Positions 1 to 12,591 of a stretch of DNA of 64,000 nucleotides are shown here, in pieces. Origin of the DNA: Candidatus Phycosocius bacilliformis (GTDB lineage: Bacteria > Pseudomonadota > Alphaproteobacteria > Caulobacterales > Aquidulcibacteraceae). The stretch is taken from the NCBI RefSeq assembly GCF_003112735.1, contig NZ_BFBR01000001.1, positions 62,001 through 126,000 of the forward strand. Reading direction: 5' to 3'. The position numbers were made by a program, and so were the translations under genes. A model generated the notes under the pieces. The model was not told where the DNA came from, did no database searches, and was given only the letters and a program-made list of their open reading frames with translations. Every line of letters starts with the position of its first letter. Position 1 is the first letter of the stretch.

Positions 1-67
1 GGGTCTTGCGACCCTCAAGAATGGCCCGGACCATGGGGCCGCTGAATAGGATTGGGTGCTCTGCCAT
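1..67 (-). CDS. Phage protein with PMVRAIL-GRKT N-terminus, partial
   Basis: Only the first 22 codons are in the window; the gene continues off the left edge. The start ATG (67-65) overlaps the TAA stop of the HD-domain gene as TAATG, so it is the next gene of the leftward operon. The visible N-terminus contains ILFSGPMVRAILEGRKT. This matches a widespread phage family whose members begin with 'LFS-PMV-AIL-G-KTQTRR'. The family is of unknown function; it may be related to ASCH/PUA-like folds, but that cannot be judged from 22 residues. Confidence 0.6.
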   Translation of the reverse strand, partial: MAEHPILFSGPMVRAILEGRKT

Positions 68-591
68 TAGAAAATCCCCAGCTCGTTTGCCCGTGCAATG
101 AAGAGTTCGTAGGCGGCTTGGGGCTCAAGGCATTCAAGTGTTGCGTCTTCAAGGGGTTTGAGTGTCCACCTCCATGGATCTCTGTTGTTCATAATCTGCC
201 GCTGCTCGGTTGCCAGCATAATCATGTCGGCAGCCTTAACTGCGGATGGCATCGGGCCAATCAAGCCAAAAAACTCAAGGATAGGACCTTCGATTGCCTT
301 CTCTATCTTTCTGTAGTCTGGCAACATTTCCTTCAAAGGTTTTGGGATGTCGCAGATAAAGGCCTCCGGCGCGTCATGCATTAGGCCCCAAAGTGCTAAT
401 TCCTCTGGGACAATTCTGGAGACCCAAACGCTATGCTCTGCAACGGAATAGAAACGGTTACACTGGCCACCAAATCTGCAAGTGTTCGCAAGGCCTCGCG
501 CAACAGCATTTAGTGTGAGATTCTCTGATGGGCGCAGAAAGCTAAAGTATGTGCCGTCGGCGGTCAGAATTGTTGGTCCGCTAATCTCCAT
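67..591 (-). CDS. HD-domain phosphohydrolase (YfbR-like)
   Basis: A 174-residue protein. It has the metal-binding HD pattern: an early His in 'YSVAEHS', the HD pair in 'LMHDAPEAF', and a later Asp in 'KAADMIM'. This architecture is that of phage and bacterial YfbR-like 5'-nucleotidases and related HD hydrolases that act on (d)NMPs. A role in shaping the nucleotide pool during infection is an inference. The start at 591 was chosen because the upstream small gene stops there with a TGATG overlap; a longer reading to 867 would run through that gene. Base composition is more AT-rich than the flanking phage genes, suggesting separate acquisition. Confidence 0.8.
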   Translation of the reverse strand: MEISGPTILTADGTYFSFLRPSENLTLNAVARGLANTCRFGGQCNRFYSVAEHSVWVSRIVPEELALWGLMHDAPEAFICDIPKPLKEMLPDYRKIEKAIEGPILEFFGLIGPMPSAVKAADMIMLATEQRQIMNNRDPWRWTLKPLEDATLECLEPQAAYELFIARANELGIF

Positions 592-770
592 CACCGGCCC
601 CCAATCATGATGCTGATGGCATCGGCAAAGATCAGGCCAAAGCCAAGGCTGGCCAGAACGCCGCACACGGCCACGGCAAGGCCGGGGTTGAAGCGGGTCG
701 TGCGGCGCAGCGGCGCAGTCGCGTGGCGCGCGCGCTGGCTGTCGAGGGTGATCAAGTGGCAGTCTTGCAC
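591..770 (-). CDS. Small single-TM phage protein
   Basis: A 59-residue open frame starting with GTG at 770, preceded by GGAG seven bases upstream. Its TGA overlaps the ATG of the HD gene. The N-terminal half is basic and rich in Arg and Thr. The C-terminal half contains one hydrophobic segment (roughly residues 34-55, with LAVAVCGVLASLGFGLIFA) followed by a short polar tail. That predicts a single membrane helix with the N-terminus in the cytoplasm. No family is recognised. The clean ribosome-binding site and coupling on both sides support a real gene. Confidence 0.6.
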   Translation of the reverse strand: MQDCHLITLDSQRARHATAPLRRTTRFNPGLAVAVCGVLASLGFGLIFADAISIMIGGR

Positions 771-832: not shown

Positions 833-1147
833 TCAGGAAAGCCCGATGGCCTCAACATAGAGGTCAAGCATCATCTGGGCCTCGTCGCGCGCGTTGGCGT
901 CTTGCTTGCGAAGCTTGATCACGGCGCGCAGGGCTTTGGTGTCAAAGCCAAGGGATTTGGCTTCGCCATAAACCTCCTTGATCTGCTCGGCGATGTCGCG
1001 ACGTTCAGTCTCAAGGTTCTCAACGCGAGCAACAAACTGGCGCAGCTTTTCCTTGCTGGCCGAACTTAGGCTTTGGGGCGCGGTCTTGTTTGACTTCACG
1101 TCCAGACGAATCTCAATTTCTTCGGCAATGCGGGAGGCCACATTCAT
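833..1147 (-). CDS. GapR-family (DUF2312) nucleoid-associated protein
   Basis: A 104-residue protein almost entirely made of the DUF2312 domain. Its core reads 'QFVARVENLETERRDIAEQIKEV', then 'YGEAKSLGFDTKALRAVIKLRKQD' and an acidic C-terminal helix. Cellular GapR of Caulobacter encircles overtwisted AT-rich DNA, stimulates gyrase and topoisomerase IV, and is needed for replication elongation. The phage copy retains the helical core and its basic residues. ATG at 1147 was preferred over GTG at 1153 because GGAG sits seven bases before 1147 but only one before 1153. The preceding gene ends at 1150. It may manage supercoiling of phage DNA or replace host GapR. Confidence 0.88.
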   Translation of the reverse strand: MNVASRIAEEIEIRLDVKSNKTAPQSLSSASKEKLRQFVARVENLETERRDIAEQIKEVYGEAKSLGFDTKALRAVIKLRKQDANARDEAQMMLDLYVEAIGLS

Positions 1148-1149
1148 CG

Positions 1150-1449
1150 TCACTCTCCTTTCAAATCTGCGTCGAGCCGCATCACATCGGCGGCAAGCGC
1201 GAAGGTGATGGTCTCGATCTCGAGCGACAGCTCGTTGGCGCGGGTGACCAGATCGCGGATGTCGTCGGCCAAGGCGTGGGCGCAGCTGACAGAAATCAGG
1301 CGTGAAAGCTGGCGATGCAGATTGCGCGCGGAATGGCCGGGCTTTTCCAGCAGGGCCAGCAAAGCCTCATTGTGGTGCAGCCGCTGCTGGCGCTTCTGCC
1401 TGTCGGTCAGGCGCGCCGTGCCGGGGAAGAGATAGACCTCGGCGCTCAT
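1150..1449 (-). CDS. Phage hypothetical protein, helical
   Basis: A 99-residue protein not recognised from any named family. It has an N-terminal segment MSAEVYLFPG, then a basic, Gln- and His-rich stretch (RQKRQQRLHHNEALLALLEK), then amphipathic helices ending in an acidic tail. The start at 1449 overlaps the stop of the exonuclease gene as TGATG, indicating translational coupling. Its 3' end contributes the ribosome-binding site of the gapR-like gene. A DNA- or protein-binding accessory role is possible, but nothing in the sequence fixes it. Confidence 0.65.
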   Translation of the reverse strand: MSAEVYLFPGTARLTDRQKRQQRLHHNEALLALLEKPGHSARNLHRQLSRLISVSCAHALADDIRDLVTRANELSLEIETITFALAADVMRLDADLKGE

Positions 1450-2186
1450 CAGCGGATCGCCTTCTCGTCCAGGACGGTGAGTGGCTCTGTCGGCATGCTC
1501 ACCGCCGGTGCCCAAGACGGCCCAAAGGTTGGGGTTTTAAAGGGACCAAGAGTCTCAACCGGAAGCTCACCGGGGAACCGTTCCTCCTCGGTGCAGTCGG
1601 CAATGACCACATCCATCTCGGCCTTGGCTTTCTTCCAGCCCTCGATGATGCGGGTTGCCTCGCTCAAGGCCTTGATCTGCTTGATGCAATCCTCAAGGCC
1701 GGTATGGGATTTCGCCGCGTCGCGTTCGACCTTCACGCCTGCGAGCTCAAGTCGGTCGCGTGTGCATCTTGCCTTCAAATAGCCCCACGGCACCAAATCT
1801 TTCAGCCCAACCTCAATGCCAAAGCGAATGATCAACTCACGCAGAATGGGCTCATCAAACGTCGCCCCATGGCACCAAAGCCGCATGTCTGGGTGGCTCC
1901 AGTCAAAAGCGCGGATCAGGGCCATGATCACCTCGCCCACGGGTTTGGGGTCGCGCGTCATCGCCTCTTGAATGTTGGCCGGCAAAGCCTGCAGCCAAAC
2001 AAGTGTCTTGGGGTCGCTGACCAGCCCAAAGCGGCTGCGCTGCTCCTCAACATCGAGGTTCATTTCAAACGTGCGGTCGACCTCGCCCGTAAACGGATTA
2101 AAGCTCGCGGCACCGATCTGACGGATAACGCAGCCTGCGCGGGTGCCTTCGGTCTCGAGGTCAATCATGATGTGATGGCAGCTCAT
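1449..2186 (-). CDS. DEDDh 3'-5' exonuclease
   Basis: A 245-residue protein with the DnaQ-fold exonuclease motifs: D9 and E11 in 'MIDLETEG', D111 in 'HGATFDEPIL', and H161 to D166 in 'SHTGLEDCIKQ'. This is the DEDDh set. The size and the WCHGATFDEPIL motif resemble the Rv2179c-like and exodeoxyribonuclease VIII-like phage exonucleases used in recombination or DNA processing. No separate annealing protein is visible in the operon. The ATG overlaps the end of the upstream gene by four bases. Confidence 0.82.
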   Translation of the reverse strand: MSCHHIMIDLETEGTRAGCVIRQIGAASFNPFTGEVDRTFEMNLDVEEQRSRFGLVSDPKTLVWLQALPANIQEAMTRDPKPVGEVIMALIRAFDWSHPDMRLWCHGATFDEPILRELIIRFGIEVGLKDLVPWGYLKARCTRDRLELAGVKVERDAAKSHTGLEDCIKQIKALSEATRIIEGWKKAKAEMDVVIADCTEEERFPGELPVETLGPFKTPTFGPSWAPAVSMPTEPLTVLDEKAIR

Positions 2187-2458
2187 GGTTGCACCTCTTG
2201 GGAAGAGGCTCTTGCCATTGCAGCTTGCAGGGCTGATGCAAGTGTTTGCACTTGCGCTTGATCAAGCACCATCATGGTTTCGATGATGTCCCAATTCAGA
2301 TTTCTAACCCGCCAAAGCTTGACCTTGCCCTTGTGGGGTCCATAAAGAATTGGGCTCGCACCAAAAGTTGTGTGTGCAAGATCTGTGTTTGTTACATGAT
2401 CGTCAGCAACGTCATGAAACGGAAAGGAAATTGTCTCAATGGTTGGTGCTTCAGACAT
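2183..2458 (-). CDS. Phage hypothetical protein (91 aa)
   Basis: A 91-residue protein without a recognised domain. The start at 2458 has GAGG nine bases upstream. The C-terminus is an Ala-rich helix (QTLASALQAAMARA). It lies in the leftward early operon with a four-base overlap into the exonuclease gene. The start codon is separated by one base from an ATG on the opposite strand that may open a divergent gene. Confidence 0.6.
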   Translation of the reverse strand: MSEAPTIETISFPFHDVADDHVTNTDLAHTTFGASPILYGPHKGKVKLWRVRNLNWDIIETMMVLDQAQVQTLASALQAAMARASSQEVQP

Positions 2459-2459
2459 A

Positions 2460-2735
2460 ATGAACGTCCTCATCAAAATGGCGGAATGGCAAAAAATCGT
2501 TGCTTTGGCCGAGCGGGTTCCGGAGTTGGAAAAAAGAATTGCGGCGCTTGAGGCGGGCCGAAATCCTCCAAAATCCAAATTCAGCTGTGCGGTTTGTGGT
2601 GCCGCAGCGCAGGTCGTCTCTGAAAAACCGCACCCAACATTTCATCCATTTGGCGACAAACAGCTTACGGTTAAATGCAACAACCCAAACTGTGGCGTTG
2701 AATCGACGCGCCGATTTAATCCAAGTGAAGGCTAA
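2460..2735 (+). CDS. Small coiled-coil/zinc-ribbon protein (tentative)
   Basis: A 91-residue frame on the plus strand inside the otherwise leftward early operon. It begins with a short coiled coil (LAERVPELEKRIAALEAG) and continues with two CxxC-type pairs, 'CAVCGAAAQV' and 'CNNPNCG', about 34 residues apart, which could form a zinc ribbon. No opposite-strand frame explains this interval. Against it, the Shine-Dalgarno signal is weak and the start is only one base from the divergent start at 2458. No family is recognised. Confidence 0.45.
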   Translation: MNVLIKMAEWQKIVALAERVPELEKRIAALEAGRNPPKSKFSCAVCGAAAQVVSEKPHPTFHPFGDKQLTVKCNNPNCGVESTRRFNPSEG

Positions 2736-2740
2736 ACCGC

Positions 2741-3187
2741 TCATCGCACAGGCCTCCGGGCTTCGAGCACCGCAAGTGGCAAGCGGATCACCAAGGTGGG
2801 CTGGCCTTTCCATGAGATAAGGCCGCTGTTGGCGGCGACTGGCTTGTCAGTCGCAACCATCTTGTGCCAAGCAAGCAGTGAGATTTGGCGGCGCGGGGCC
2901 TTGCCGATCTTGCCAACCCGCCCAACGGGGAAAGCCTCAGAGGCCTCGCCTGTGTGCTTCTGAAGCATCAAGGCATTCTCGGAGGTGTTCTCAGAGACGC
3001 TGATGCTCGCAGGCTCTCCCAAGCCGGAGAACACCTGATCAGAGATTGAGATGGTCAAAACCAAGCCGCTGGTGCGCCGCTTCACCGACACGGTGACAGG
3101 TGTGTCAGCCTTCGCCTTTGGCGGGGATGGCTGCACAACGCGCCAGCCTTCGGCGGCAGGCAAGCGATCAAAGCTGGCGACGCTCAT
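2741..3187 (-). CDS. Phage hypothetical protein (148 aa)
   Basis: A 148-residue protein of unknown function, second gene of the leftward operon. It looks like an all-beta N-terminal half (alternating VTVSVKRRTSGLVLTISIS) followed by a basic helical part, with a C-terminal strand LVIRLPLAVLEARRPVR. The start at 3187 overlaps the stop of the upstream membrane gene as ATGA; a longer in-frame reading would enter that gene. DNA or RNA binding is conceivable given the basic character, but is not shown. Confidence 0.6.
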   Translation of the reverse strand: MSVASFDRLPAAEGWRVVQPSPPKAKADTPVTVSVKRRTSGLVLTISISDQVFSGLGEPASISVSENTSENALMLQKHTGEASEAFPVGRVGKIGKAPRRQISLLAWHKMVATDKPVAANSGLISWKGQPTLVIRLPLAVLEARRPVR

Positions 3188-3372
3188 CGGGCCAGCCCCA
3201 TGAACAAGGCCAAGGCAAGCCCCAGCCCGCAAATGATGCCGCTGGCCGTCAGGCCGACCAAAAACACCGCCCCAACACGGGCGATCAAGCTGTCGCTCTC
3301 GTAACCATCAAGCGAGTGCGGACGCAGCCACGCTTTGGGGGTGCGATCCTCTGGATAAATGAATTGGGACAT
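3184..3372 (-). CDS. Small single-TM phage protein, first gene of the leftward operon
   Basis: A 62-residue protein whose start at 3372 is preceded by a strong AGGAGG seven bases upstream. The C-terminal half is a Gly- and Ala-rich hydrophobic helix (VGAVFLVGLTASGIICGLGLA) followed by ALFMGLAR. This predicts a one-pass membrane protein with a cytoplasmic N-terminus. It lies immediately downstream of two repressor operators, so it should be the first product made on induction. Superinfection exclusion or membrane modulation is a guess from position only. Confidence 0.6.
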   Translation of the reverse strand: MSQFIYPEDRTPKAWLRPHSLDGYESDSLIARVGAVFLVGLTASGIICGLGLALALFMGLAR

Positions 3373-3398
3373 GGTGCCTCCTGGGTGAGGAGGCATTT

Positions 3399-3448
3399 GT
3401 TGCAGATTGCAAACAGAGCGTCAAGCCAAAATGTTGCGATTTGCAAAC
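3399..3448. promoter_or_regulatory. Two repressor-type operators before the leftward early operon
   Basis: GTTGCAGATTGCAAAC (3399-3414) and GTTGCGATTTGCAAAC (3433-3448) differ at only a few positions and are 34 bases apart. The same 16-mer recurs around the repressor start about 1.1 kb away. The motif is an imperfect palindrome (GTTGC/GCAAAC). They sit where a PL-like promoter of the leftward operon is expected. Binding by the XRE repressor is inferred. Confidence 0.7.
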
Positions 3449-3545
3449 AGTGATTTTGCAAGTTCACTGCCTGTCAACCAAACCTTGACTGAAATCGGGT
3501 GTCTAACTTAAGGTATGCTGTTGATTGAATAGAAGGAGTTGCAGA

Positions 3546-4112
3546 ATGAACTCATCGATTGCGGCAACTGCCCTAACCCTTCTTCTTCACGCATCCAGCC
3601 CTTGGGTTATCGGTCAGGAACGTGAGGTAGATCAGGGCATCTATATGACCTTTCAGTCTGAGCAAGACGGGTGGCGCATATGGCGCATTGACACAAAAGC
3701 AGGGGTTGAGTGCAAAGCAGCTAAGTCAGCTATTGGGCGACCACATGCGACTCCACTAGGTTACAAAGACGTTTTAGACGGTCCTGCTCCAAGAACAGAG
3801 ATTTCGGCATACATGACCTTTGCGATACCTTATGGGCCTCCCGCCGAGTTGCGGCTTGCTCAGGATTGGTTTGGCACTTACCGATCAGGAGAAACGCAGT
3901 TTAGAGGCGTTGGGGAGCGCTTTTTTAGAAGCATGGACGAGCTGCAAACTAACCGCAAAGGCCTTAAGATCATTGAAGTGAACAACGTCAGTTGGGAGTA
4001 TCCGGCCCTTCACCTTGGAATGTCGGAGATTAATGCCCAGTTTGATTTGACCGGCATTGATTGGGCCGAAGCACAAGTGTTAGCATGTTACAAGAAGAAC
4101 GGTTCCCGCTGA
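3546..4112 (+). CDS. Exported protein of the immunity region, probable moron
   Basis: A 188-residue protein with an N-terminal signal peptide (hydrophobic core ATALTLLLHASS, likely cleavage after about residue 24). GGAG lies nine bases before the ATG at 3546. The mature part is hydrophilic with many aromatic residues and two Cys. No family is recognised. It lies between the leftward early operon and the repressor, convergent with the repressor, and is more AT-rich than neighbours. These are features of lysogenic-conversion genes expressed from the silent prophage. A periplasmic role, for example in blocking superinfection, is an inference. Confidence 0.7.
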   Translation: MNSSIAATALTLLLHASSPWVIGQEREVDQGIYMTFQSEQDGWRIWRIDTKAGVECKAAKSAIGRPHATPLGYKDVLDGPAPRTEISAYMTFAIPYGPPAELRLAQDWFGTYRSGETQFRGVGERFFRSMDELQTNRKGLKIIEVNNVSWEYPALHLGMSEINAQFDLTGIDWAEAQVLACYKKNGSR

Positions 4113-4176
4113 GGTTTGCGCGACAAACAGCGTTGTCGATGTTCTCATTTGGCCGATTTGATTGGCAATCTTGTGT

Positions 4177-4491
4177 CTAGCTTGCCACCTTAGCGTCTTG
4201 AAACTGCTCCAAAACACGCATGGCTTGAGGTTTTGATACCTCTGGGATCGTGGCCCAGACTTCCATAACATAGCTGTCAAGCGTTTCCGGGTCATGTTCT
4301 AAAAGCAAACCAGGTCGAGTTTTAAGTACTGGCGCAATTCGCCATAGCCATTTGGGCGACAGCGCGCGCTTGCCCGATTCGAGCAAGCTAATCACAGCTG
4401 GCGTGGTCTCAACCGCAGCAGCAAGCTCCTCCTGCGTCATCTTGCGATACTCGCGCCAAGCTTTCAGGTGATTCCGAGGTTCTTCTGCCAT
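4177..4491 (-). CDS. XRE-family HTH repressor
   Basis: A 104-residue protein with a helix-turn-helix at about residues 10-60, including 'MTQEELAAAVETTPAVISLLESGKR'. The remainder is helical and could dimerise. There is no LexA/CI-type peptidase domain, so induction is unlikely to go by RecA-stimulated self-cleavage of this protein. It is transcribed away from the Cro-like gene with operator copies between them, the usual genetic-switch arrangement. One operator (4492-4507) abuts its own start codon, predicting autoregulation. The longer in-frame start at 4587 was rejected because it would run through the operators. Confidence 0.85.
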   Translation of the reverse strand: MAEEPRNHLKAWREYRKMTQEELAAAVETTPAVISLLESGKRALSPKWLWRIAPVLKTRPGLLLEHDPETLDSYVMEVWATIPEVSKPQAMRVLEQFQDAKVAS

Positions 4492-4577
4492 GTTTGCAAA
4501 ATGCGCGTGGTTCACTTCATGGTGAAGACGCAATTTGCAAACATGGGGGGTTGCAAAAATTGTTGCAATCTGCAAAC
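4492..4577. promoter_or_regulatory. Operator cluster between repressor and Cro-like gene
   Basis: Three copies of the GTTGCRATTTGCAAAC-type element are visible: 4492-4507 (inverted, CGCGCATTTTGCAAAC on the minus strand), 4527-4542 (GACGCAATTTGCAAAC) and 4562-4577 (GTTGCAATCTGCAAAC). A weaker, inverted fourth match lies near 4549-4562. The first touches the repressor start codon and the last lies just upstream of the Cro-like start. The interval also holds a TTCAC/GTGAA inverted repeat (about 4511-4526). This is the probable PR/PRM control region. Confidence 0.72.
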
Positions 4578-4585
4578 TTTGGGGC

Positions 4586-4843
4586 ATGGCAAACTATGAT
4601 CCTAATGAGTTTTATGGAAAGCTGCTTGGCATAGGAGTTTCACGTCCTTACGCTTCGCAGCTGGCGCAGGGCGCGCGAACGCCCTCCATGTCCTTTGCGA
4701 TGTCGATCTGTGAGCGTTTAGGCATTAGTTTGGACGTTTGGCGGGAGATCAGTGAGTGGCGGGCTGCGACCCAATCTCTAGCTCCTGCTGTTCCTGTCGA
4801 ACATGAGAAAGTCACCACTGATTTCCCGGAGGCCCTGCCATGA
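4586..4843 (+). CDS. Cro-like HTH protein
   Basis: An 85-residue protein with an HTH of the XRE type ('IGVSRPYASQLAQGARTPSMSFAMSICERLGI', about residues 13-45) and a short acidic tail. It opens the rightward early operon, divergent from the repressor, which is the canonical position of Cro. The start at 4586 was chosen because the longer reading from 4535 passes through two operators. Its stop overlaps the ATG of the next gene by four bases. Confidence 0.75.
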   Translation: MANYDPNEFYGKLLGIGVSRPYASQLAQGARTPSMSFAMSICERLGISLDVWREISEWRAATQSLAPAVPVEHEKVTTDFPEALP

Positions 4844-5274
4844 GTGCGGCCTCGCCTCGCCAGCATGCGTCTTGGGCGCGGCTTTTGATCAAGGCCTGTG
4901 GTGGTCTGGATGAAGCTTCGCGCGCGTGCCGCCTGTCGGTTTCGCAGCTGAGCCGATGCCAAGACGGCAATGACCCCAATGTCCTGCCGGTCGATGTGAT
5001 TGCCGATCTTGAGCTCTATTGTGGGCAGGCGATTTATTCACGCGCCTTGGTCTCGCTGCTTGAGGGGGCGACCAGTCAGTCGGTGCCAGCTGATCTGGTG
5101 TCGGAGGCCTGTGACGTGGGCGAAGCGGGGGCAGAGCTGCAGGCCTGTATGCGCCGGGCCGTGACGGACGGCAAGCTTACTGAAGCTGAAATGCGGGCAA
5201 TTGCCCAAAAGGCCGACCGGGTGCGCAAGGAATTGGCCGATCTGGATCGGGTCTTGGCTGGGGGGCAGGTCTGA
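4840..5274 (+). CDS. Phage regulatory protein (CII-like position)
   Basis: A 144-residue protein coupled by an ATGA overlap to the Cro-like gene. The N-terminal third contains an HTH-like segment (GGLDEASRACRLSVSQLSRCQD). The C-terminal third is a long charged helix ('KLTEAEMRAIAQKADRVRKE'), probably a coiled coil for oligomerisation. Similar proteins occur after Cro in alphaproteobacterial phages and are often labelled CII-like regulators. Its target is unknown. Confidence 0.6.
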   Translation: MSAASPRQHASWARLLIKACGGLDEASRACRLSVSQLSRCQDGNDPNVLPVDVIADLELYCGQAIYSRALVSLLEGATSQSVPADLVSEACDVGEAGAELQACMRRAVTDGKLTEAEMRAIAQKADRVRKELADLDRVLAGGQV

Positions 5275-5276
5275 TC

Positions 5277-6131
5277 ATGCTCGACAGCCTGTTTGACAAT
5301 CTGCCGGTTCAATTGGCCCCTGTCGACCGACTGGGGCCAATAAAAGGGCGTGTTCAGCCCAACGGGATTGTCCAAGGTGCTGCCGCTGTGATGGCGGGGC
5401 GAATTGAGCCGGTCGATAGCTTGGACTTTTTCCCAACCCCGCCATGGGTGATCCGTTGCCTGCTGGGCGAGGTGTTGCCCGAGATCACGGGCTATGTGGG
5501 GCAGCTGCGCGGCAAGAGTGTGGTGTCGAGCGTGTGGGAGCCTGCGTGTGGGGCGGGCCATATGGCCGGGCCGATGGCGGACTTTTTCGACGTGGTGCAT
5601 GCCAGCGACGTGGCTGATTATGGCTTTCCCAATCTGGGCCAGCCGTGCCCGCGGCGGGGCAGCTTTGTGGCCGAACGCGGGCTTGACCCCCTGCCCGAGC
5701 CTGATGGCGGGGTTGATTGGGTGATCACCAATCCCCCGTTCAATCTGTCGCTGGCCTTTGCCCGGCGCGCTTTGGCGGTGGCCCGCATTGGCGTGGTGTT
5801 GCTGGTGCGCCTTGGTTGGCTTGAAGGGATTGAACGCTGGCGGTTTCGCCAAGAGTTTCCGCTTTTTTGTGCCGTCAGCTTTGCCCAGCGCGTGGCCATG
5901 TTCAAGGGCCGCTGGGATCCAGATGGCAGCTCAGCCACAGCCTATGCCGCCATGATTTGGCTGCGCGACAACAACGGCAATTGGACGTCGGGCTGTGGCG
6001 CATGCGGTGAGCCGTGCCTTGAGCGCACCTATTGCGTCGCGCCACAGGCGGATGCGCGCTGGTGGCAACCTCAAGATTTGGACAGATGGGGCGGGGCTTG
6101 GCCGCGCCTGGATGGAGTGGCTTATGGCTGA
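5277..6131 (+). CDS. DNA adenine N6-methyltransferase
   Basis: A 284-residue protein with the S-adenosylmethionine motif EPACGAGHM at residues 88-96 and the catalytic NPPF at 152-155, in the order of class I N6-adenine methyltransferases. The N-terminal 'DFFPTPPWV' motif is typical of small phage MTases of this sort. A Cys cluster near residues 237-249 may bind zinc. No cognate restriction gene is present, so it is an orphan. Recognition site is unknown; it does not look like full-length CcrM. Roles could be protection from restriction or making a methylation signal read by the GcrA homologue encoded in the same operon. Confidence 0.85.
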   Translation: MLDSLFDNLPVQLAPVDRLGPIKGRVQPNGIVQGAAAVMAGRIEPVDSLDFFPTPPWVIRCLLGEVLPEITGYVGQLRGKSVVSSVWEPACGAGHMAGPMADFFDVVHASDVADYGFPNLGQPCPRRGSFVAERGLDPLPEPDGGVDWVITNPPFNLSLAFARRALAVARIGVVLLVRLGWLEGIERWRFRQEFPLFCAVSFAQRVAMFKGRWDPDGSSATAYAAMIWLRDNNGNWTSGCGACGEPCLERTYCVAPQADARWWQPQDLDRWGGAWPRLDGVAYG

Positions 6132-6606
6132 CACATCACCCCTGATTTTCAATGGCCCAGCCCATCAGGCCGCTTTGGCAGAGGCCCGGCAACTGGCGCA
6201 TGACTTTGGTGCCGACTTGGACCGGGTGCGGCTGATCGTCGGGCAGCGGGTGGCATTTTGGCAGGCCCGGGCCAAGGCCAATCCCAAGTGCGGGGCCGAT
6301 CTTATGGCGCTGCTGGCTTGCCGGGCGGTGTTGGACTTGATTGCCCAGGTCAGCCCCGTGGAGGGCGATGAAGTGGCGTGGCTGTCGTGCACAGAGCGGC
6401 GCGGATTGGCCGCGATCGATAAGGAAAGTGCCATCAGCCTGACTGCGCCAAGTCGCAGCCCGCTTGCGGCAGATCACCCCTATCTGTTCTCGGCCTGTCG
6501 GATTCTGCGGATCAATGGGCTGTTTCGCATGGGCGAGGCCGGAAAGGCCGCCAAGCGGCGCGCAACCGCCCGCAAATCATCATCACAGGCAAGGAGGGCA
6601 GCATGA
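6124..6606 (+). CDS. Phage hypothetical protein (160 aa)
   Basis: A 160-residue, mostly helical protein whose ATG at 6124 lies inside the last codons of the methyltransferase gene (8-base overlap). The C-terminus is strongly basic and Ser/Ala-rich (KAAKRRATARKSSSQARRAA), reminiscent of a nucleic-acid-binding tail. It contains a few Cys but no clear zinc motif. Not recognised. Confidence 0.6.
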   Translation: MADTSPLIFNGPAHQAALAEARQLAHDFGADLDRVRLIVGQRVAFWQARAKANPKCGADLMALLACRAVLDLIAQVSPVEGDEVAWLSCTERRGLAAIDKESAISLTAPSRSPLAADHPYLFSACRILRINGLFRMGEAGKAAKRRATARKSSSQARRAA

Positions 6607-7079
6607 AAAGCATGCCAAGGGGCGATAAGCCCGTGAAGCGCGCGCGGGCGGGCGAGGGATATGCCATCGTCAAGGATCGGGTGCATAGGGTGAAGGATAA
6701 GGCGGTTGCCGCTTACGTGGCCACACATGTGCTTGGCCGTGAAATCCTTGATCAGGGCAATGTGGGCGATGCGGCACCCGCATTTGTGGTTACGGCCTGC
6801 GGGGACAAGTTCTGCCGCGCCCATGAACGGGAAAAGCCAGCGGGATGGCGCTGCAGCGTGGAGGGCGCTGGTTTCTCATGCCTGTGTGGCCACGCAAAAG
6901 GCGATACGATCACCATGGTCCAAGCCGCTTTGGGTGTCGGCTTTTTTGAGGCGCTGCAAGAGTTGGACCGGGCCTTGCCGGGGCGCGCGGTGCGCACCGA
7001 TCGCACGGCATCGGGGGATTTGTTTGGTGCGACAGCACCGTCAGAAATGGCCATGCGTGGCAAGGCGGGCCGATCATGA
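6603..7079 (+). CDS. Stand-alone CHC2-type zinc-finger protein (primase-like N-domain)
   Basis: A 158-residue protein. Residues 66-125 resemble the zinc-binding domain of bacterial primase DnaG: C71-x2-H74, an aromatic-rich middle, a Cys cluster at C93/C95/H97, then 'KGDTITMVQAALGVGFFEALQELDRAL', which matches the GD-I--V....F-EAL signature. The last ligand pair is C-x-C-G-H rather than C-x2-C, so metal coordination may differ. No Toprim catalytic domain follows, so it is not a primase by itself. It may load or regulate a primase, or recognise template. It sits directly before the DnaA domain IV-like gene (four-base overlap). Confidence 0.68.
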   Translation: MKSMPRGDKPVKRARAGEGYAIVKDRVHRVKDKAVAAYVATHVLGREILDQGNVGDAAPAFVVTACGDKFCRAHEREKPAGWRCSVEGAGFSCLCGHAKGDTITMVQAALGVGFFEALQELDRALPGRAVRTDRTASGDLFGATAPSEMAMRGKAGRS

Positions 7080-7486
7080 TCGTGCGGGCTTTGGATGAGC
7101 ATGATCTGGTCGACCAAGTGCGGCTTGATCCACGCCAAGGCGAAGGGCCCAGCGTGGTGCGGATTTCTTTTGCCACTGTGCGCCGGGTCGTTGGGCAGGA
7201 GTTTGGGTTGCCGGAGGCGTGCTTCACGTTGCGCAGTCGGAGACCGTTTTATGCGTGGCGAAGGTTTGCCGTCGTGTTTTGGGCGCGCTTCTTCTGCAAA
7301 GAACCCTGCTCGCCCCTGCCCATGTCCTATCCCAACATCGCCCAACGATTGGGTCTGCGCGATCATACCACGGCCATGCATGGCTGGCGACGGGCCAAAA
7401 AATTGTGGGCAGAAGGCGGGGAGTTTGGGGCAGCGATGGATCGATGCTGGCTGGCGTTTCAGGAGCTGAGCGATGGCAGGCGCTGA
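7076..7486 (+). CDS. DnaA domain IV-like DNA-binding protein
   Basis: A 136-residue protein. Residues about 37-112 match the C-terminal DNA-binding domain of the initiator DnaA, including the signature R95-D-H-T-T-x-x-H102 ('LRDHTTAMHGWRRAKKL') and the preceding FGL...RSRR...A segment. The AAA+ ATPase is absent. It could bind DnaA boxes and compete with, or recruit, host DnaA. The gene is embedded in the phage replication operon with short overlaps to both neighbours. Confidence 0.8.
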   Translation: MIVRALDEHDLVDQVRLDPRQGEGPSVVRISFATVRRVVGQEFGLPEACFTLRSRRPFYAWRRFAVVFWARFFCKEPCSPLPMSYPNIAQRLGLRDHTTAMHGWRRAKKLWAEGGEFGAAMDRCWLAFQELSDGRR

Positions 7487-7586
7487 CATGTTTACCGTGA
7501 TTGATTGGAAGGGCGGGGGCTTAAGCGTGCGGATTGGCAAGACCTGGCACGTGCAGCTCTCCGATGATGGGAGGGCCGCCCTGTGA
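7473..7586 (+). CDS. 37-residue protein in the early operon
   Basis: A short frame with AGGAG eight bases before its ATG, overlapping the end of the preceding gene (14 bases) and the GTG start of the gcrA-like gene (four bases). It encodes MAGADMFTVIDWKGGG followed by a beta-like stretch and a charged end. No family. The tight packing and good ribosome-binding site support translation, and it may serve to couple translation of the next gene. Confidence 0.5.
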   Translation: MAGADMFTVIDWKGGGLSVRIGKTWHVQLSDDGRAAL

Positions 7587-8230
7587 CCGAAAAGTGGACT
7601 GATGAGGCGACTGAGCTGGCTGTCATGATGCGCAAGCGGGGTGACACAGCTGCTGCCATTGCCCATGCGCTGGCGCGCCAATTGGGCTTTGTGGTCAGCC
7701 GCAACGCGGTGATCGGCAAGATGAAGCGGATGGAGGAGGCGGGCAAGATACCAAAGTTTGAGCGGCCGACAACGCCGCGTCTGGTGAATGCTGTCAAACC
7801 AGCCCCGCGGCCCAAGCCGACACGGAAATGGCGGGACCTGCTGGCGGCAAAGCGCGCGGCGGCGGATCCAGATGCGGCAGCATTGGCTGCAGAGCAAATC
7901 GAGGTTCAGCCCGCGCCAAAGCCTCTGGCTGACATCTACACCCGGGTGGAATTGGCCGGCCGGAGTTCGGTCACCTTAACCGACCTTCGCCAGCATCATT
8001 GCCGCTTTCCCCAAGAGGACGCCCAAGGCCGCACAGTGTTTTGCGGCAAGCCAAGGGTGGCGGGCTCGTCATGGTGCGCAGAGCATCAGGCGCGCTGTGT
8101 GGTGGTGATTGAGCCCAAGGCCAAAAAGGGCCCAACCCGGCGCGGGCGTGGCCCGGCCCGGCATGAGCGGGCTGTGCCTTTGCGGACCGTGTTTGATCGC
8201 ACGACAGCAGGATTGGATATGCTGCGATGA
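7583..8230 (+). CDS. GcrA cell-cycle regulator homologue
   Basis: A 215-residue protein with GcrA architecture. The N-terminal HTH (residues 5-50) begins WTDEATELAV and contains 'SRNAVIGKMKR'. A variable Ala/Pro-rich linker follows. The C-terminal zinc-like module has C140 in 'HHCRFP', C154 in 'FCGKP' and C165/H168 in 'WCAEH'. In Caulobacter, GcrA binds sigma70 and promoters carrying methylated GANTC sites made by CcrM. The phage form keeps both ends, so it could recruit host RNA polymerase. The GTG start overlaps the preceding small gene. The methyltransferase three genes upstream makes a methylation link attractive but unproven. Confidence 0.88.
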   Translation: MTEKWTDEATELAVMMRKRGDTAAAIAHALARQLGFVVSRNAVIGKMKRMEEAGKIPKFERPTTPRLVNAVKPAPRPKPTRKWRDLLAAKRAAADPDAAALAAEQIEVQPAPKPLADIYTRVELAGRSSVTLTDLRQHHCRFPQEDAQGRTVFCGKPRVAGSSWCAEHQARCVVVIEPKAKKGPTRRGRGPARHERAVPLRTVFDRTTAGLDMLR

Positions 8231-9066
8231 GCGGGTTGGTTCAGGGTTTGGTATGGCGAGCACGGCTGGATCGGGTCGCAGATGGTGCGCAAGCACCCGG
8301 CCCTTGGGTGAAGCCGATCCTGTGTCGTCTGGCCGATGAGGCGGATGATGAGGGTTTTGACGTGTGGCCATCGGTTGGCACGGTTGCGGGCGATGTGGGT
8401 GTCAGCGAGGCCACGGTGCAGCGGGCTTTGCGCTGGCTTAAGGCGGTCGATCTCTTGCGGGTCGATGGATCGGCCACTGGCGGGCGCGGTCGGACAACCC
8501 GCTATTGGATCAATGTGACGCTCCTCCAAGAGATACAGCGGGGTCGATCTGGGCGCAAAGATGTGCCGCCGCCTGCATCGGATCGTGGCGAAAAAGGGTG
8601 TCACACAGACACCCTTTTGGGAAAATCCGAGGGTCAAAAGGGTGTCACAGAGAGCCTAAAGGGTGTCAGAAAAGGCCTAAAGGGTGTCACAGGTGACACC
8701 CTACCCTATACCCATATACCCGTAAACGCGCGCGAGGCGCGCCGGGCGAGCGCGCGACCTGAAGGCCGCTCGCCCGGCTCTGGTGAGGTTAGGCCGCACT
8801 CTGGCGGGCAGGACTTGGTGGCAGAGCTCGACGTGCCAGTGGACAAACAGGCGTTTGAGGCGTGGGGCGCGCTGGTCGCGGCTATCGTGGTCAAGCGCAT
8901 GCAGCAAGACGCACGGGCTTGGCTGTCACGGCGGGCCGGTGTGGTCGTCAAAACCGCGGGGCAAATTCAGGCAGCCAGCGCATTCAAGGCCGAACGCCTT
9001 CGCCAAACGATGGGCAGTCTTCTCGATGAGGTGGGATGGCAGGTCACGGTGCGGGGAAGTGGGTGA
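8227..9066 (+). CDS. O-like phage replication initiator (winged-helix)
   Basis: A 279-residue protein. Residues about 25-95 form a winged-helix region ('EGFDVWPSVGTVAGDVGVSEATVQRALRWL', then a Gly-rich wing GGRGRTTRYWIN), like replication proteins of the lambda O/DnaD-like type. The middle is low-complexity and encoded by repeated AAAGGGTGTCA units, giving KGV repeats, and the C-terminus is helical. In lambdoid phages the origin lies inside the O gene; the repeats here fit the same plan. Helicase and helicase-loader genes are absent, so host factors would be used. Confidence 0.7.
   Translation: MSGLVQGLVWRARLDRVADGAQAPGPWVKPILCRLADEADDEGFDVWPSVGTVAGDVGVSEATVQRALRWLKAVDLLRVDGSATGGRGRTTRYWINVTLLQEIQRGRSGRKDVPPPASDRGEKGCHTDTLLGKSEGQKGVTESLKGVRKGLKGVTGDTLPYTHIPVNAREARRASARPEGRSPGSGEVRPHSGGQDLVAELDVPVDKQAFEAWGALVAAIVVKRMQQDARAWLSRRAGVVVKTAGQIQAASAFKAERLRQTMGSLLDEVGWQVTVRGSG
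8592..8702. repeat. Iteron-like repeats, probable replication origin
   Basis: Six copies of GGGTGTCA or its complement lie within 111 bases. Direct copies with AAAG or TAAAG leaders start at about 8592, 8636, 8657 and 8678; inverted copies occur at 8608-8618 and 8693-8702. The first pair forms an 11-bp perfect inverted repeat (AAAAGGGTGTC/GACACCCTTTT) with a 5-base loop. The last pair forms a 10-bp palindrome with a 2-base loop. They lie inside the replication-initiator gene and are followed by a more AT-rich stretch (CCTATACCCATATACC). Origin function is inferred. Confidence 0.65.
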
Positions 9067-9118
9067 GTTATGTTGTTGGATTGCAACTGGTTTTCTGAGT
9101 TTGGATAGGGGTTTGTCT

Positions 9119-9688
9119 ATGCTGCGCGCGCTTCGATTTGGGTCTCATTGGCACGTCTTGGTCACAAGTGTTGGTCGGGAAATCGAGGCTGAACGCAAGC
9201 TCTTGGGCTTCGATGGCGTCGAGCCTTACTGTCCCAAGCACACGGTTTGGCAAAGGGTTCATGCGAAGGAGGCTCGGCGGATTGGTTGTTCTCGCAAGAT
9301 GGTTCAGCATGCTCTGCTGCCGGGCTACATTTTCGTGCGTACCGATCTCGGCTTGGTTTCGGTGCGGGACCTCGTGACCCATGCCGATGCCCGGCATGTT
9401 CTGATCGTTGATGGCCGGGCATGTATCGTGCGGCCTCAGTTGATCCAATCGCTGCAAGCAGCTGAACGATCTGGATTGTGGGATCAGGCTGAGGGTGAGA
9501 TCAACAAATTGCAGTTGCGTCTTGGCCAGTCATATCTCATTCAATCTGGGCCAATGCGCGGATTTATTGGGGTTTTGCGTTCAATCGACTTCAACAGCTT
9601 GAAGCCAACCATGACAGTCGAGGTCGAGCTTTTGAAAAGAAATGTTGAAGTCGTGCTTGACCAAAAAACCGAACTCATGAATTCGTAA
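9119..9688 (+). CDS. NusG/RfaH-like transcription antitermination factor
   Basis: A 189-residue protein. The N-terminal NGN domain (about residues 8-75) shows 'HWHVLVTSVGREIEAERKL', a 'YCPKH' segment and the signature LLPGYIFVRTDL. The C-terminal KOW-like region contains 'SGPMRGFIGVLRSIDFNS'. It is a specialised paralogue rather than the housekeeping NusG, because it stands alone in the phage without secE or rplK. Its place between the replication genes and the terminase suggests it lets polymerase read through into the late operon. The ATG at 9119 follows AGGGG by eight bases; upstream in-frame sequence belongs to another gene. Confidence 0.83.
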   Translation: MLRALRFGSHWHVLVTSVGREIEAERKLLGFDGVEPYCPKHTVWQRVHAKEARRIGCSRKMVQHALLPGYIFVRTDLGLVSVRDLVTHADARHVLIVDGRACIVRPQLIQSLQAAERSGLWDQAEGEINKLQLRLGQSYLIQSGPMRGFIGVLRSIDFNSLKPTMTVEVELLKRNVEVVLDQKTELMNS

Positions 9689-9764
9689 GCGCAGGACGAC
9701 TGGCGACCTGTTGCCCAATGTGTGCACGGCCAATCCTGGGGAAGGTTTCAACCGCTCCCCGCGT

Positions 9765-9786
9765 AAAGCGAAGCTTTGCCCTTTTC
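9765..9786 (+). terminator. Weak terminator-like hairpin after the NusG-like gene
   Basis: AAAGC-GAA-GCTTT followed by GCCCTTTTC. It is preceded at about 9738-9760 by a second potential stem (GGGGA/TCCCC). Together these could form an early/late boundary terminator that the NusG-like protein overcomes. The stem is short, so this is tentative. Confidence 0.35.
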
Positions 9787-9888
9787 AACGCTCAAACGAA
9801 AACAAGCATAAACGGGTCCTTTTCTTGGCTGACACTAAGCGGCAGCTCGAAAGTCCCGCATGATGATTAGTGAGGGTCTTTTCAAAAA

Positions 9889-9912
9889 TGGTTGACTGGT
9901 TGACTGGTTGAT
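9889..9912 (+). repeat. 8-bp tandem repeat abutting the terminase start
   Basis: TGGTTGAC, TGGTTGAC and TGGTTGAT are consecutive and end exactly at the ATG of the small terminase gene. They replace a normal Shine-Dalgarno sequence. An ATG at 9888 opens a seven-codon frame (MVDWLTG) that stops one base before the terminase start, with GAGGG upstream, so reinitiation is possible. Confidence 0.55.
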
Positions 9913-10491
9913 ATGAACCAAGTCGAGTTTGCCTCGCTCTGCGGGGTAACAAAGCAGATGGTGAGCAAATGGAAGCGGGATGGCAGGCTGGTGTTTCAGG
10001 CTGGTGTTCTCGACCCACGTGAGAGCCTCGCAAATCTTGCGGGGGTCTGGCAGGATGAACCTGCCCGCCGTCAAGCTTTGGCCTCGCTTGTGGGCACTGA
10101 CTTTGTGCCAGCCCCGGCCAATGACCAAGAAACCAACCTTACCTTTCGCCAGCAGGCCGATGCTCTGCGCCTTGAGCGCGAACGCTTGGCTTTGGCACGA
10201 GAGTCCGGCGAAGTTGTATCGGTGAAAGAGGTGCAGAAACGCGCCATGGAAGCCGTCACACGCTTGCAATTGGGTCTCGATAGTCGCCAGCACAGCCTTA
10301 TCGACAAGATTTTCGAGATCACCGGCGCAGATCCGCGCCTGCGAAGCCAGCTGCAGCGCACCGTGCGCAACTGGAAGGCCGAAGCGATGGCAAAGTTTGC
10401 GGGCGACATGGCTCGCTGCGCCCAGATCCCGGATGGCGAGCCCCTGCCATCGCTTGACGATCTTGACGCTGAGGACGTTGCGGTCGGCTGA
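9913..10491 (+). CDS. Terminase small subunit (Nu1-like)
   Basis: A 192-residue protein with an N-terminal HTH ('FASLCGVTKQMVSKWKRDGR', residues 6-25), as in phage DNA-recognition subunits. A central charged helix (ALRLERERLALARESGEVVS) and helical C-terminal region would oligomerise and contact the large subunit. It lies three bases before the large terminase gene. The protein should bind the packaging initiation site. There is no strong ribosome-binding site before the ATG. Confidence 0.8.
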   Translation: MNQVEFASLCGVTKQMVSKWKRDGRLVFQAGVLDPRESLANLAGVWQDEPARRQALASLVGTDFVPAPANDQETNLTFRQQADALRLERERLALARESGEVVSVKEVQKRAMEAVTRLQLGLDSRQHSLIDKIFEITGADPRLRSQLQRTVRNWKAEAMAKFAGDMARCAQIPDGEPLPSLDDLDAEDVAVG

Positions 10492-10494
10492 TCG

Positions 10495-12591
10495 ATGGCA
10501 TCCGCGCTTTTGTCCGTCGCTGGCACCGCCAGCGCAGCCCAAGTCGTGTTTGGCGCGCTGGCCCAGGTGGCTGCACCCGCCCCGTTTCGACGGATTGCCG
10601 ACTGCGTAGCCCAAGCCCGACATGTGGGTGCGGCGTCGGGCTCCAGTCGACCTGGCCTTTGGGATAACGCCGTCTATCCCGAGGCGGTTGAGATTATGGA
10701 CTGCCTGGACGAAACCCACCCTGCCACCAATGTGGTCGTGTGCGGTGCCGCCCAGCTGTTCAAGACAGAAGTGGGCCTCAACTTCATGGCCCACACGATC
10801 TTAGACGATCCGTGTGGGTTCATTTTCGCCACTTCCACGATTGGGGATTTGCGCGAATTCACCGGCACCAAGTTTCAGGGAATGATCGATGATTCCCCGG
10901 AGTTGAAGCGGCGGGTCTTTGGCATTGTTGAAAAGAGCGCGCAGGGCTCAAACGCCACATCAAAGCGGTTCAAGGGCGGCTCAATCGCCATGGTCACCGC
11001 TTCCAGCTCTCGCGGGCTGCAGGCCAAGTCGAACCGCAAGGGCTGGGGAGATGAGGTCGCAGAGTGGCCGCTTGATGTTGGTGGTCGCGGATCCCCGGTT
11101 GAGCAGATGCGCACCCGCGCAGACGCGCAATACAACGCCAAATTCTTGTGGACCTCGACGCCAAAAGACCTGCCCGATTGCAAAATCACCCAGATGCTTG
11201 AGGCAGGTGATTATCGGGTGCGGTTCCATCAGTGCCCCCAGTGCACCGATTGGACTGATTGGCGGTTTGAAGACCTGACAGAGATTGATGGCAACCCGCA
11301 TCTGGTGTGCCGAAGCTGCGGCTATCCGATCCCGGAAGGGCAGAAGAACAAAATCCGCGCCAATGGCAAGTGGATCAAGACCTACAAAGTGCTGGATGAT
11401 GAAGGGCAAGAGGATCCAAGAAACCCAAGCCCGCCTGAAATCATCCCTGACGCGGAAATCGATCGCTGGCACCAGCGCACATCTGCCGGCAGGGACCCAA
11501 GTTTTACATTCAACCAGCTGATCTCGGCCTTCAAACCGTGGTCAAAGCTGATGGCGGAAGGTCGCGATGCCGAAAAAGGCGACACCGCCAAGAAAAAAGT
11601 GTTCAGCCAGCAAAAGCTGGGCCGTGCTTGGAACCCAGACACGGAATCGGCTGACGCGGATCTGCTTCATGCCTGCGTCGGCAAGTTTACGCCTCCGCGC
11701 GGTCGCATTCCGCGCTGGGCCTGCCGCTTGACTTTGGCGGTCGACGTTCAGGGAAACCGGCTGGAATGGGCGGCGTGGGCTTGGGGACCCAATGATACCG
11801 GGGCTCGCATTGATTGGGGCGAGATCGAGGGCGATCCAACCCGCCGCGCGGTCTGGTCAAAGCTCGATGCCGACGTGATTCCGCGCAAGTGGCCGTCAGA
11901 TCATCTGATCGACCTGGCTGCGGATGGCGTTGCCATCGATTCAGGCGGGCAAGAGGGGGTCACCCCGCAAGTTTATGGCTTTGTGGGGCGGCGGCCGGGT
12001 CTTTACGCCATTAAGGGGGACACAGGGGTTCAGCCGCAGGCGTCTTATCTGTGGCGCGCGCCCAAAGTGGCGCGGGCCAAGCTGGCTGGTCGCACGGTTT
12101 CGACCAACCTCTACTTTCTCGCCAATGGCGAAACCAAGAGTTTGATTGCATCAGGCCTTCGCCTGTCCATTCAAGCCGCTGAAGAACAAGAGTTTCAGGC
12201 AGGCGGTCTTTATCTGACCGCCGAAACATCGCTGGAGCATGTCAAGCAGCTCACCGCCGAGGTCTATACACCCTCGGCGCGTCCAGGGGGGCGCGGCACG
12301 TGGGAGCGCAAGGCGGGCCAAGCCAATGAGCAATTGGACTTGGCCCGCATGGCCATGGCCCTGAACTGGCACCAGACTCGGGTCTGGGATGCTGAGCGGT
12401 GGCAACGTGAATTCATTGCGCGCGCACGTCCGGTCGAGGCCGCTGAAGCGCCGCCCATGCTCGAACTGATGATGGCTCAAGGCGAGGCACCCCCTGCCCC
12501 GGTTGTCATTCCCCTTAATCCCGGCGCGGCTCCGGCCAAGCCGCCCCGTCGCAAGCTGACCAAGATCGGAGGTTTCTTTGACCGAAGCTGA
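10495..12591 (+). CDS. Terminase large subunit, gpA family
   Basis: A 698-residue protein matching lambda gpA-type terminases. An N-terminal ATPase region includes 'VVVCGAAQLFKTEVGLNF' (a Walker A-like segment without the classic GKT), then 'GWGDEVAEWP' (Walker B-like) and 'KFLWTSTPK' (motif III-like). A Cys-rich insertion carries C-x2-C pairs ('CPQC', 'CRSCG'). The C-terminal nuclease part includes 'LAVDVQGNRLEW' and 'IDSGG'. It cuts concatemers and drives DNA into proheads. The tail is Pro-rich. Confidence 0.93.
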   Translation: MASALLSVAGTASAAQVVFGALAQVAAPAPFRRIADCVAQARHVGAASGSSRPGLWDNAVYPEAVEIMDCLDETHPATNVVVCGAAQLFKTEVGLNFMAHTILDDPCGFIFATSTIGDLREFTGTKFQGMIDDSPELKRRVFGIVEKSAQGSNATSKRFKGGSIAMVTASSSRGLQAKSNRKGWGDEVAEWPLDVGGRGSPVEQMRTRADAQYNAKFLWTSTPKDLPDCKITQMLEAGDYRVRFHQCPQCTDWTDWRFEDLTEIDGNPHLVCRSCGYPIPEGQKNKIRANGKWIKTYKVLDDEGQEDPRNPSPPEIIPDAEIDRWHQRTSAGRDPSFTFNQLISAFKPWSKLMAEGRDAEKGDTAKKKVFSQQKLGRAWNPDTESADADLLHACVGKFTPPRGRIPRWACRLTLAVDVQGNRLEWAAWAWGPNDTGARIDWGEIEGDPTRRAVWSKLDADVIPRKWPSDHLIDLAADGVAIDSGGQEGVTPQVYGFVGRRPGLYAIKGDTGVQPQASYLWRAPKVARAKLAGRTVSTNLYFLANGETKSLIASGLRLSIQAAEEQEFQAGGLYLTAETSLEHVKQLTAEVYTPSARPGGRGTWERKAGQANEQLDLARMAMALNWHQTRVWDAERWQREFIARARPVEAAEAPPMLELMMAQGEAPPAPVVIPLNPGAAPAKPPRRKLTKIGGFFDRS

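Follow-up and report, generated by a model that had tools for sequence, protein, structure and literature searches.

The stretch of DNA analysed here (the window: 64,000 nucleotides, positions 62,001 to 126,000 of contig NZ_BFBR01000001.1 of Candidatus Phycosocius bacilliformis) starts within a prophage whose early region encodes homologues of GapR and GcrA, a protein consisting of domain IV of DnaA only (DnaA-C) and an orphan adenine DNA methyltransferase (MTase). We show that these four kinds of gene are common among related phages and assort independently of each other; the combination of all four is unusual, being the only one in our samples, yet it is what independent gain would give. We put the probability at about 0.55 that they are four separate add-on genes, each acting on the host on its own. 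A preliminary description of this sequence had proposed that the four genes form a combined module acting as one system, and had made this depend on co-occurrence beyond chance in related phages. There is no such excess, and with co-occurrence at chance level a conserved four-gene module is not supported.

Distribution of the four genes among related phages

Four samples of loci were compared. Three came from scans of viral contigs, with the best 80 loci kept in each: relatives of the MTase (133 found), of a GapR alignment (at least 544) and of a GcrA alignment (177). The fourth, obtained by scanning named genomes with the MTase, comprised 75 loci, of which we take 74 to be alphaproteobacterial and one to belong to a Phycisphaerales metagenome-assembled genome. 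Removal of near-identical anchors (at least 90%) and of loci shorter than 8 kb reduced the samples from 80 to 71, 80 to 68, 80 to 64 and 75 to 64 loci, respectively, and the window phage was then removed from the MTase set, leaving 70. The samples overlap (for example, L076, L211 and L376 are one locus), and the counts ignore kinship. Genes were detected at strict cut-offs with hidden Markov models (HMMs) built from the sampled loci; one match to the helix-turn-helix (HTH) part only (L082) was counted as GcrA. Among the HMM matches, a Pfam check covered ten comparison proteins, nine of which scored above the cut-offs, while the tenth, an MTase, has no Pfam family and matches phrog_799. In a class-wide sample, 27 of 387 genomes, the window's own included, had any MTase match at E<=1e-3, too few for co-occurrence analysis; a search for terminase-based relatives among genome contigs found none.

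Among the 70 loci of the MTase set, 8 encode GcrA, 14 GapR and 15 DnaA-C. The corresponding counts are 8 for MTase, 18 for GcrA and 13 for DnaA-C in the GapR set (n = 68); 7 for MTase, 4 for GapR and 16 for DnaA-C in the GcrA set (n = 64); and 3 for GcrA, 14 for GapR and 9 for DnaA-C in the named MTase set (n = 64). No other locus encodes all four (0/70, 0/68, 0/64 and 0/64), with 0.34, 0.39, 0.11 and 0.09 such loci, respectively, expected if the genes were independent, and loci with at least two of the other three genes are not in excess over shuffles (lowest P 0.09). A prophage from another genus of the host family carries GcrA, DnaA-C and a weak GapR.

The same holds for pairs of neighbours. 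GcrA and MTase genes lie within 150 nucleotides of each other in 7/17 loci, or 5/13 distinct phages with the window phage among the 13 (L014, L026, L067, L253 and L259), but this is not a special pair, given the similar frequencies of MTase next to DnaA-C (6/21) and of GcrA next to an orphan CtrA-like winged-helix domain that is among the neighbours of viral GcrA genes (4/11; duplicates between samples are included in both counts). DnaA-C and the CtrA-like domain co-occur in 7 loci of the MTase-centred viral set versus 2.4 expected (p 0.001), in 1 versus 1.1 and 2 versus 1.5 in the other two viral sets, and in 4 versus 1.7 (expectation calculated by hand) in the named set, which overlaps the MTase-centred viral set; we do not claim this excess because related phages were only partly removed. 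Two further pairings, MTase with the CtrA-like domain in the GcrA set (3 versus 0.7, p 0.014) and MTase with DnaA-C in the GapR set (4 versus 1.5, p 0.04), would fail correction for 26 tests (8-kb limit).

The four proteins and their place in the prophage

The identification of the four homologues in the preliminary description is upheld by family, PHROG and fold matches. GapR and GcrA both score above their Pfam cut-offs; DnaA-C scores slightly below its own, but its predicted fold matches.

GapR scores 99.3 bits against PF10073 (DUF2312; cut-off 22.6, E 9e-29), matches a Caulobacter GapR structure in a phmmer search (E 9e-20) and is about 80% identical to the host's own cellular copy over the few (80) columns compared. 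A tree was built from the window protein and 99 other sequences, 59 of them viral (45 of the 72 GapR-set loci and 14 MTase-set loci) and 40 cellular; here it falls into a supported set of 10 rows together with nine cellular ones (SH-aLRT 95), and the rows nearest to it are GapR of the host genus. Judging from this placement, the phage GapR is probably a recent copy acquired from the host genus. DsbA of phage T4 is a reported relative of GapR (PMC7824862), and by analogy the phage GapR may also serve phage transcription.

GcrA scores 68.2 bits against PF07750 (cut-off 26.9, E 1e-18), and phmmer matches it to full-length 7ye1 (E 7e-8). The first four Foldseek matches of its model are chains of Caulobacter GcrA that cover both the DNA-binding domain (DBD) and the sigma-interacting domain (SID), with weak E values (0.02-0.1; TM-score by target 0.76 for the 5yiu DBD, E 0.10, and 0.76 for the 5yix SID, E 0.05). 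Foldseek, phmmer and the alignment agree on the two-domain architecture, so that, as modelled, the phage GcrA keeps the DNA-binding and the sigma70-interacting domains, and both binding activities are predicted. It forms a long, unplaced branch (end branch 1.91) in a tree that used 75 out of 87 viral loci with full-length GcrA, together with 5 loci from genomes and 31 cellular sequences. A tblastn search of INPHARED yielded no match at E<=1e-3 for the window GcrA or DnaA-C; a canonical phage GcrA as query retrieved 22 records, 18 of them from Caulobacter phages. Four other phage open reading frames (ORFs; L024:6818-7387, L039:9038-9421, L043:5955-6890 and L029:6902-7126) match the GcrA profile solely in its C-terminal half, which interacts with sigma, and lack the DNA-binding half; they are possible decoys or anti-GcrA proteins.

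No Pfam family matches the MTase at E<=1. The protein belongs with phrog_799 (DNA methyltransferase, E 1.6e-42) and is 42% identical over 198 amino acids (aa) to PhiLM21_p027, with NPPF aligned, in keeping with the NPP(F/Y/W) pattern; we take the ITNPPF of the window protein to be the methyltransferase motif. With no PF01555 (N6_N4_Mtase) domain, the protein is not a homologue of CcrM and, by sequence, is of the phrog_799/PhiLM21_p027 type. PhiLM21_p027 is reported to methylate GANTC and described as lacking sequence similarity to the host CcrM, and genes for GANTC MTases of this kind are reported next to phage replication genes (PMC5537653). The idea of an orphan adenine MTase aimed at the host cycle is strengthened by this, the family being one shown to copy the GANTC specificity of CcrM.

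GANTC usage was rejected as a sign of MTase activity: the median observed/expected (o/e) ratio is 0.26 in 71 loci with the MTase, and 0.29 (60 loci) and 0.31 (55 loci) in those without. The early right operon of the window prophage (4470-10200, 5.7 kb) contains a single GANTC (6501), versus 16.9 expected under a Markov model and about 8 at the prophage's own density, and the late region does hold GANTC sites. This depletion is not general (near versus far from the MTase, p 0.67, 70 loci), and we do not regard it as a regulatory sign. The switch region 4492-4585 is free of GANTC, as is the interval from 6501 to 10201 that includes the terminase leader, so the sequence gives no support for GcrA- or methylation-dependent control of these promoters. 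Separately, CANTG is rarer in the phrog_799 MTase loci (L009-L088; median o/e 0.67) than in the two groups without the MTase (0.80 and 0.78; p 2.5e-6 and 7e-4).

DnaA-C (136 aa) scores 28.3 bits against PF08299, its sole Pfam match, below the cut-off of 31.5, and matches no PHROG family at E<=0.1. It is matched by phmmer to DnaA chain 8btg (E 8e-5), and the top Foldseek matches of its AlphaFold model (mean pLDDT 84) are complexes of the DnaA DBD with box DNA, 3pvp and 1j1v (TM-score by target 0.89 and 0.87). The alignment retains RDHTT, which we take to be the DNA-contact signature. Lacking an AAA+ ATPase domain, the protein is not an initiator; as modelled, it is a DnaA protein of domain IV only, 28% identical to the end of the host DnaA. 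Given this divergence, the unplaced GcrA and a GapR probably copied from the host genus, the four genes were probably not acquired as one block.

The element around these genes is a temperate phage with an ordinary lambda-like plan, as seen from its integrase, tRNA-Gly, repressor, Cro-like and CII-like genes, O-like protein, antiterminator and terminases. A tyrosine integrase gene adjoins tRNA-Gly at the left end of the prophage, beyond the window (L124). A 36,943-bp IMG/VR provirus, whose ends project to about -4555 and 32387 of the window, encodes an MTase, a DnaA-C and a GcrA each 100% identical to those of the window prophage. A divergent CI/Cro switch (4177-4843) and a CII-like gene are followed by the rightward early operon, which closes with the O-like replication and NusG-like antiterminator genes, and then by the terminases (Table 1). 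The four genes had been placed in early operons next to the switch, and the location stands, but they are divided between two divergent operons: MTase, DnaA-C, GcrA and the O-like gene are tightly packed in the rightward one, and GapR belongs to the leftward one. The start of DnaA-C overlaps the end of the preceding gene and GcrA overlaps the O-like gene; judging from gene order, MTase, DnaA-C and GcrA are very likely co-expressed with phage replication. Several TTTGCAAA-like words seen by eye at 4493-4577 are probably operators of the CI/Cro region, and the four repeats within the O-like gene probably constitute the phage origin.

Table 1. Features of the early region of the prophage (window coordinates)
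Feature	Position	Strand	Evidence or remark
HD-type deoxyribonucleoside 5'-monophosphatase	67-729	-	leftward operon; phrog_318, E 9e-66
GapR homologue	833-1147 (ORF reaches 1153)	-	PF10073; just upstream of the HD phosphatase gene
Exonuclease	1449-2186	-	leftward operon; phrog_255, E 5e-31
CI-type repressor	4177-4491	-	HTH_3, E 5e-9; internal ATG taken as start
Divergent switch region	4492-4585		repeated TTTGCAAA-like words, by eye; GANTC-free
Cro-like HTH protein	4586-4843	+	HTH_3, E 3.5e-5; start read from sequence
CII-like activator	4840-5274	+	phrog_101, E 2e-13
DNA methyltransferase	5277-6131	+	phrog_799; relative of GANTC-specific PhiLM21_p027
Possible primase-type zinc-ribbon protein (weak)	6603-7079	+	phrog_360, E 0.001; PF01807, E 0.015, below cut-off
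DnaA domain-IV-only protein	7076-7486	+	RDHTT signature retained
37-codon ORF bridging DnaA-C and GcrA	7473-7586	+	overlaps both; sequence read directly
GcrA homologue	7583-8230	+	PF07750; DNA-binding and sigma-interacting domains
Replication initiation (O-like) protein	8227-9066	+	phrog_391, E 1e-11
Four repeats of about 21 nt	8585-8691	+	AAAGGGTGTCACA core; within the O-like gene
NusG-like transcription antiterminator	8783-9688 (ORF bounds; true start inside)	+	phrog_6386, E 5e-13
Terminase small and large subunits	9913-12591	+	phrog_57, phrog_15

The host genome encodes its own GcrA, GapR and DnaA, plus a single PF01555 (CcrM-type) MTase. A second element of the same genome (L125, contig C10:80001-100000) carries a divergent GcrA (9941-10444; 50 bits to PF07750) about 8 kb from a phrog_799 MTase (1266-1877), next to PAPS-reductase-like, helicase-like and ParB-like genes. 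Inspection by eye of its ORFs of at least 120 aa revealed no clear phage structural gene; it is an island or plasmid, not clearly a prophage, and was left out of the co-occurrence counts.

Proposed roles and competing explanations

That phage genes of these kinds act on the host cycle, as the preliminary description suggested, has been published before for individual genes (PMC3556154, PMC5537653, PMC9437464). Host GcrA is reported to bind methylated GANTC promoters and recruit RNA polymerase (PMC3667746), and the prophage protein YfdR to bind DnaA and lower host initiation (PMC4776307). The detailed roles that we sketch for the four add-on genes are more tentative than their independence. On induction or infection, the rightward operon would be made along with the replication initiator. 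The MTase would keep host and phage GANTC sites methylated at times other than the normal late CcrM window of the host, and the phage GcrA, with its sigma70-binding domain kept, would recruit RNA polymerase to those promoters of host S-phase genes that carry methylated GANTC, the two proteins together keeping such promoters on. DnaA-C, devoid of the ATPase and helicase-loading domains, would occupy DnaA boxes and damp host initiation, so that the helicase and replisome are left free for the phage origin within the O-like gene, and GapR, almost identical in kind to the host protein, would handle overtwisted DNA in phage replication. These effects would add up with no gene needing another, so that phages could gain and lose the genes one by one.

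Several observations weigh against this proposal. An identity of 42% to PhiLM21_p027 cannot fix the target site of the MTase, so that its GANTC specificity is a prediction, and the genomes carry no trace of its activity, GANTC being avoided equally with and without the gene. The prophage lacks an exact DnaA box (TTATNCACA; the host origin was not searched), which leaves DnaA-C with no obvious phage target. The deep divergence of the phage GcrA may mean altered binding, and a 26-gene prophage operon of Brevundimonas subvibrioides is reported to be expressed in a GcrA-dependent manner (PMC7987155), so that GcrA may act on phage genes too. Finally, sampling was based on homology, and a module built of more distant homologues could be missed.

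Three of the four genes are clustered in a single operon that also contains the O-like gene, with overlapping genes linking DnaA-C to GcrA; host GcrA reads CcrM-type methylation (PMC3667746), the site of which is copied by the MTase family (PMC5537653); and GcrA and MTase are close neighbours in 5 of 13 distinct phages. All this would suit a true cell-cycle-rewiring module as proposed in the preliminary description, a single circuit that sets the lysis-lysogeny choice or the timing of replication by the host cycle. We nevertheless consider such a circuit improbable: none of the four samples contains another locus with all four genes and partial sets are not in excess, adjacency is not peculiar to the GcrA-MTase pair, the switch region and the terminase leader are GANTC-free, and GapR belongs to the other operon and has another origin.

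Defence evasion or housekeeping, whereby the MTase only shields the DNA from restriction, GcrA and DnaA-C regulate the phage only and the likeness to the host cycle is incidental, is a possibility that we doubt but take seriously. Phage MTases commonly protect DNA, and the sampled phage loci strongly avoid GANTC whether or not they encode the MTase, much as they would a restricted or regulatory site. The GcrA-dependent prophage operon in Brevundimonas (PMC7987155) also fits, but the specificity shown for the MTase family is that of host methylation, which already marks host-grown DNA, the sigma70-binding domain of GcrA points to transcription by the host RNA polymerase, and regulation of the phage alone would find no DnaA box in the prophage and no GANTC in either the switch region or the terminase leader. 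Chance capture, in which recombination with host DNA brought in genes that are mostly neutral passengers and persist only briefly, would account for a GapR that is 80% identical to the host copy and groups in the tree with cellular GapR of the host genus (SH-aLRT 95 for the 10-row set). As an explanation of all four genes it is very unlikely: the same kinds of gene are found again in 5-26% of the other loci sampled, and GcrA, DnaA-C and MTase diverge from host proteins or named relatives and yet keep their domains and open frames, as under selection. We retain the reading of four independent add-on genes that act on the host.

Comparison with known phages and prophages

Individual components of this set have been described. 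GcrA is reported in phage Atu_ph08 (PMC6630229) and in a coral-associated phage (PMC11309003), and GANTC MTases in phages (PMC5537653, PMC7139368); an Erythrobacter phage is reported to encode a domain like that of CcrM (PMC5463345), GcrA, DnaA and UPF0335 all appear in a published table of phiLM21-like prophages (PMC12429752), and the interest of phages in the host cycle has been discussed with GcrA and CcrM analogues named (PMC9437464). In the open-access PMC literature, so far as its text could be searched, we found no account of the four genes together or of a set of CtrA DBD, DnaA-C, GcrA and MTase.

The closest relatives in layout share part of the set. Sinorhizobium phage phiLM21 (KJ743987) carries a repressor, Cro, an MTase of the same family, a DnaA-C-only protein, a NusG-like antiterminator and terminase in the same order as the window prophage; it differs in having an annotated DnaB helicase in the operon and, over the 18.5 kb examined, in lacking a match to GcrA or GapR. 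The Rhizobium phage isolate RHph_N28_2 (MN988516) has three of the four kinds, with a GapR domain by the switch and MTase and DnaA-C genes before a NusG-like gene, but no GcrA match, and a 305-aa protein encoded in the rightward operon contains its GapR domain. Caulobacter phage phiCbK (JX100813) has a phage GcrA, gp222, which alone has been proposed to raise host replication functions (PMC3556154), and gp127 (L442:540-1241), annotated as a putative DNA methylase, is a distant phrog_799-type MTase (E 2e-25). Unlike in the window prophage, the two genes are about 58 kb apart in a 216-kb genome, and the part examined (200 of 215.7 kb) gave no match to GapR or DnaA-C. Ssp-JY42 (PP438432), listed as a Synechococcus phage although this host label is doubtful, has annotated GcrA and DnaA C-terminal proteins in one same-strand cluster and a CtrA-like HMM match at only E 9e-7; the 49.9 kb examined yielded no match to a phrog_799 MTase or to GapR.

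The prophage of Afifella pfennigii DSM 17143 (L376, identical to L076) encodes, like the window prophage, DnaA-C, GcrA and an MTase of the same family, and differs by an extra orphan CtrA-like winged-helix domain and by the lack of a GapR match in 20.6 kb. DnaA-C, GcrA, the MTase and the CtrA-like domain lie on one strand within 4.1 kb (6567-10684). The CtrA-like domain matches Pfam Trans_reg_C (E 7e-11), and its label rests, besides this match, on a motif that we take to be that of CtrA. Phage-encoded winged-helix domains of the OmpR/CtrA type, with an N-terminal coiled-coil-like stretch replacing the receiver, were seen near MTase, DnaA-C or GcrA genes in this and other loci (L076:8603-8989, L259:6996-7373, L046:8332-8709 and others).

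Temperate phages of alphaproteobacteria might share a replaceable kit of a DnaA DBD, a CtrA DBD, GcrA, a CcrM-unrelated GANTC MTase and GapR, subsets of which would make the host permissive for replication; we regard this generalization as unlikely at present, although, if true, the window phage would hold four of the five parts and the Afifella pfennigii prophage four mimics of master regulators in one operon. Several host cell-cycle parts in one temperate phage offer a compact, testable case in hosts whose replication is tied to development, and DnaA and CtrA copies reduced to the DBD suggest a general trick, namely competition for the sites of a host regulator without its signal input. Compared with what is already known, that is, single phage GcrA genes and phage GANTC MTases, the Afifella-type set of DnaA-C, GcrA, MTase and CtrA-like domain is a more novel lead than the combination in the window.

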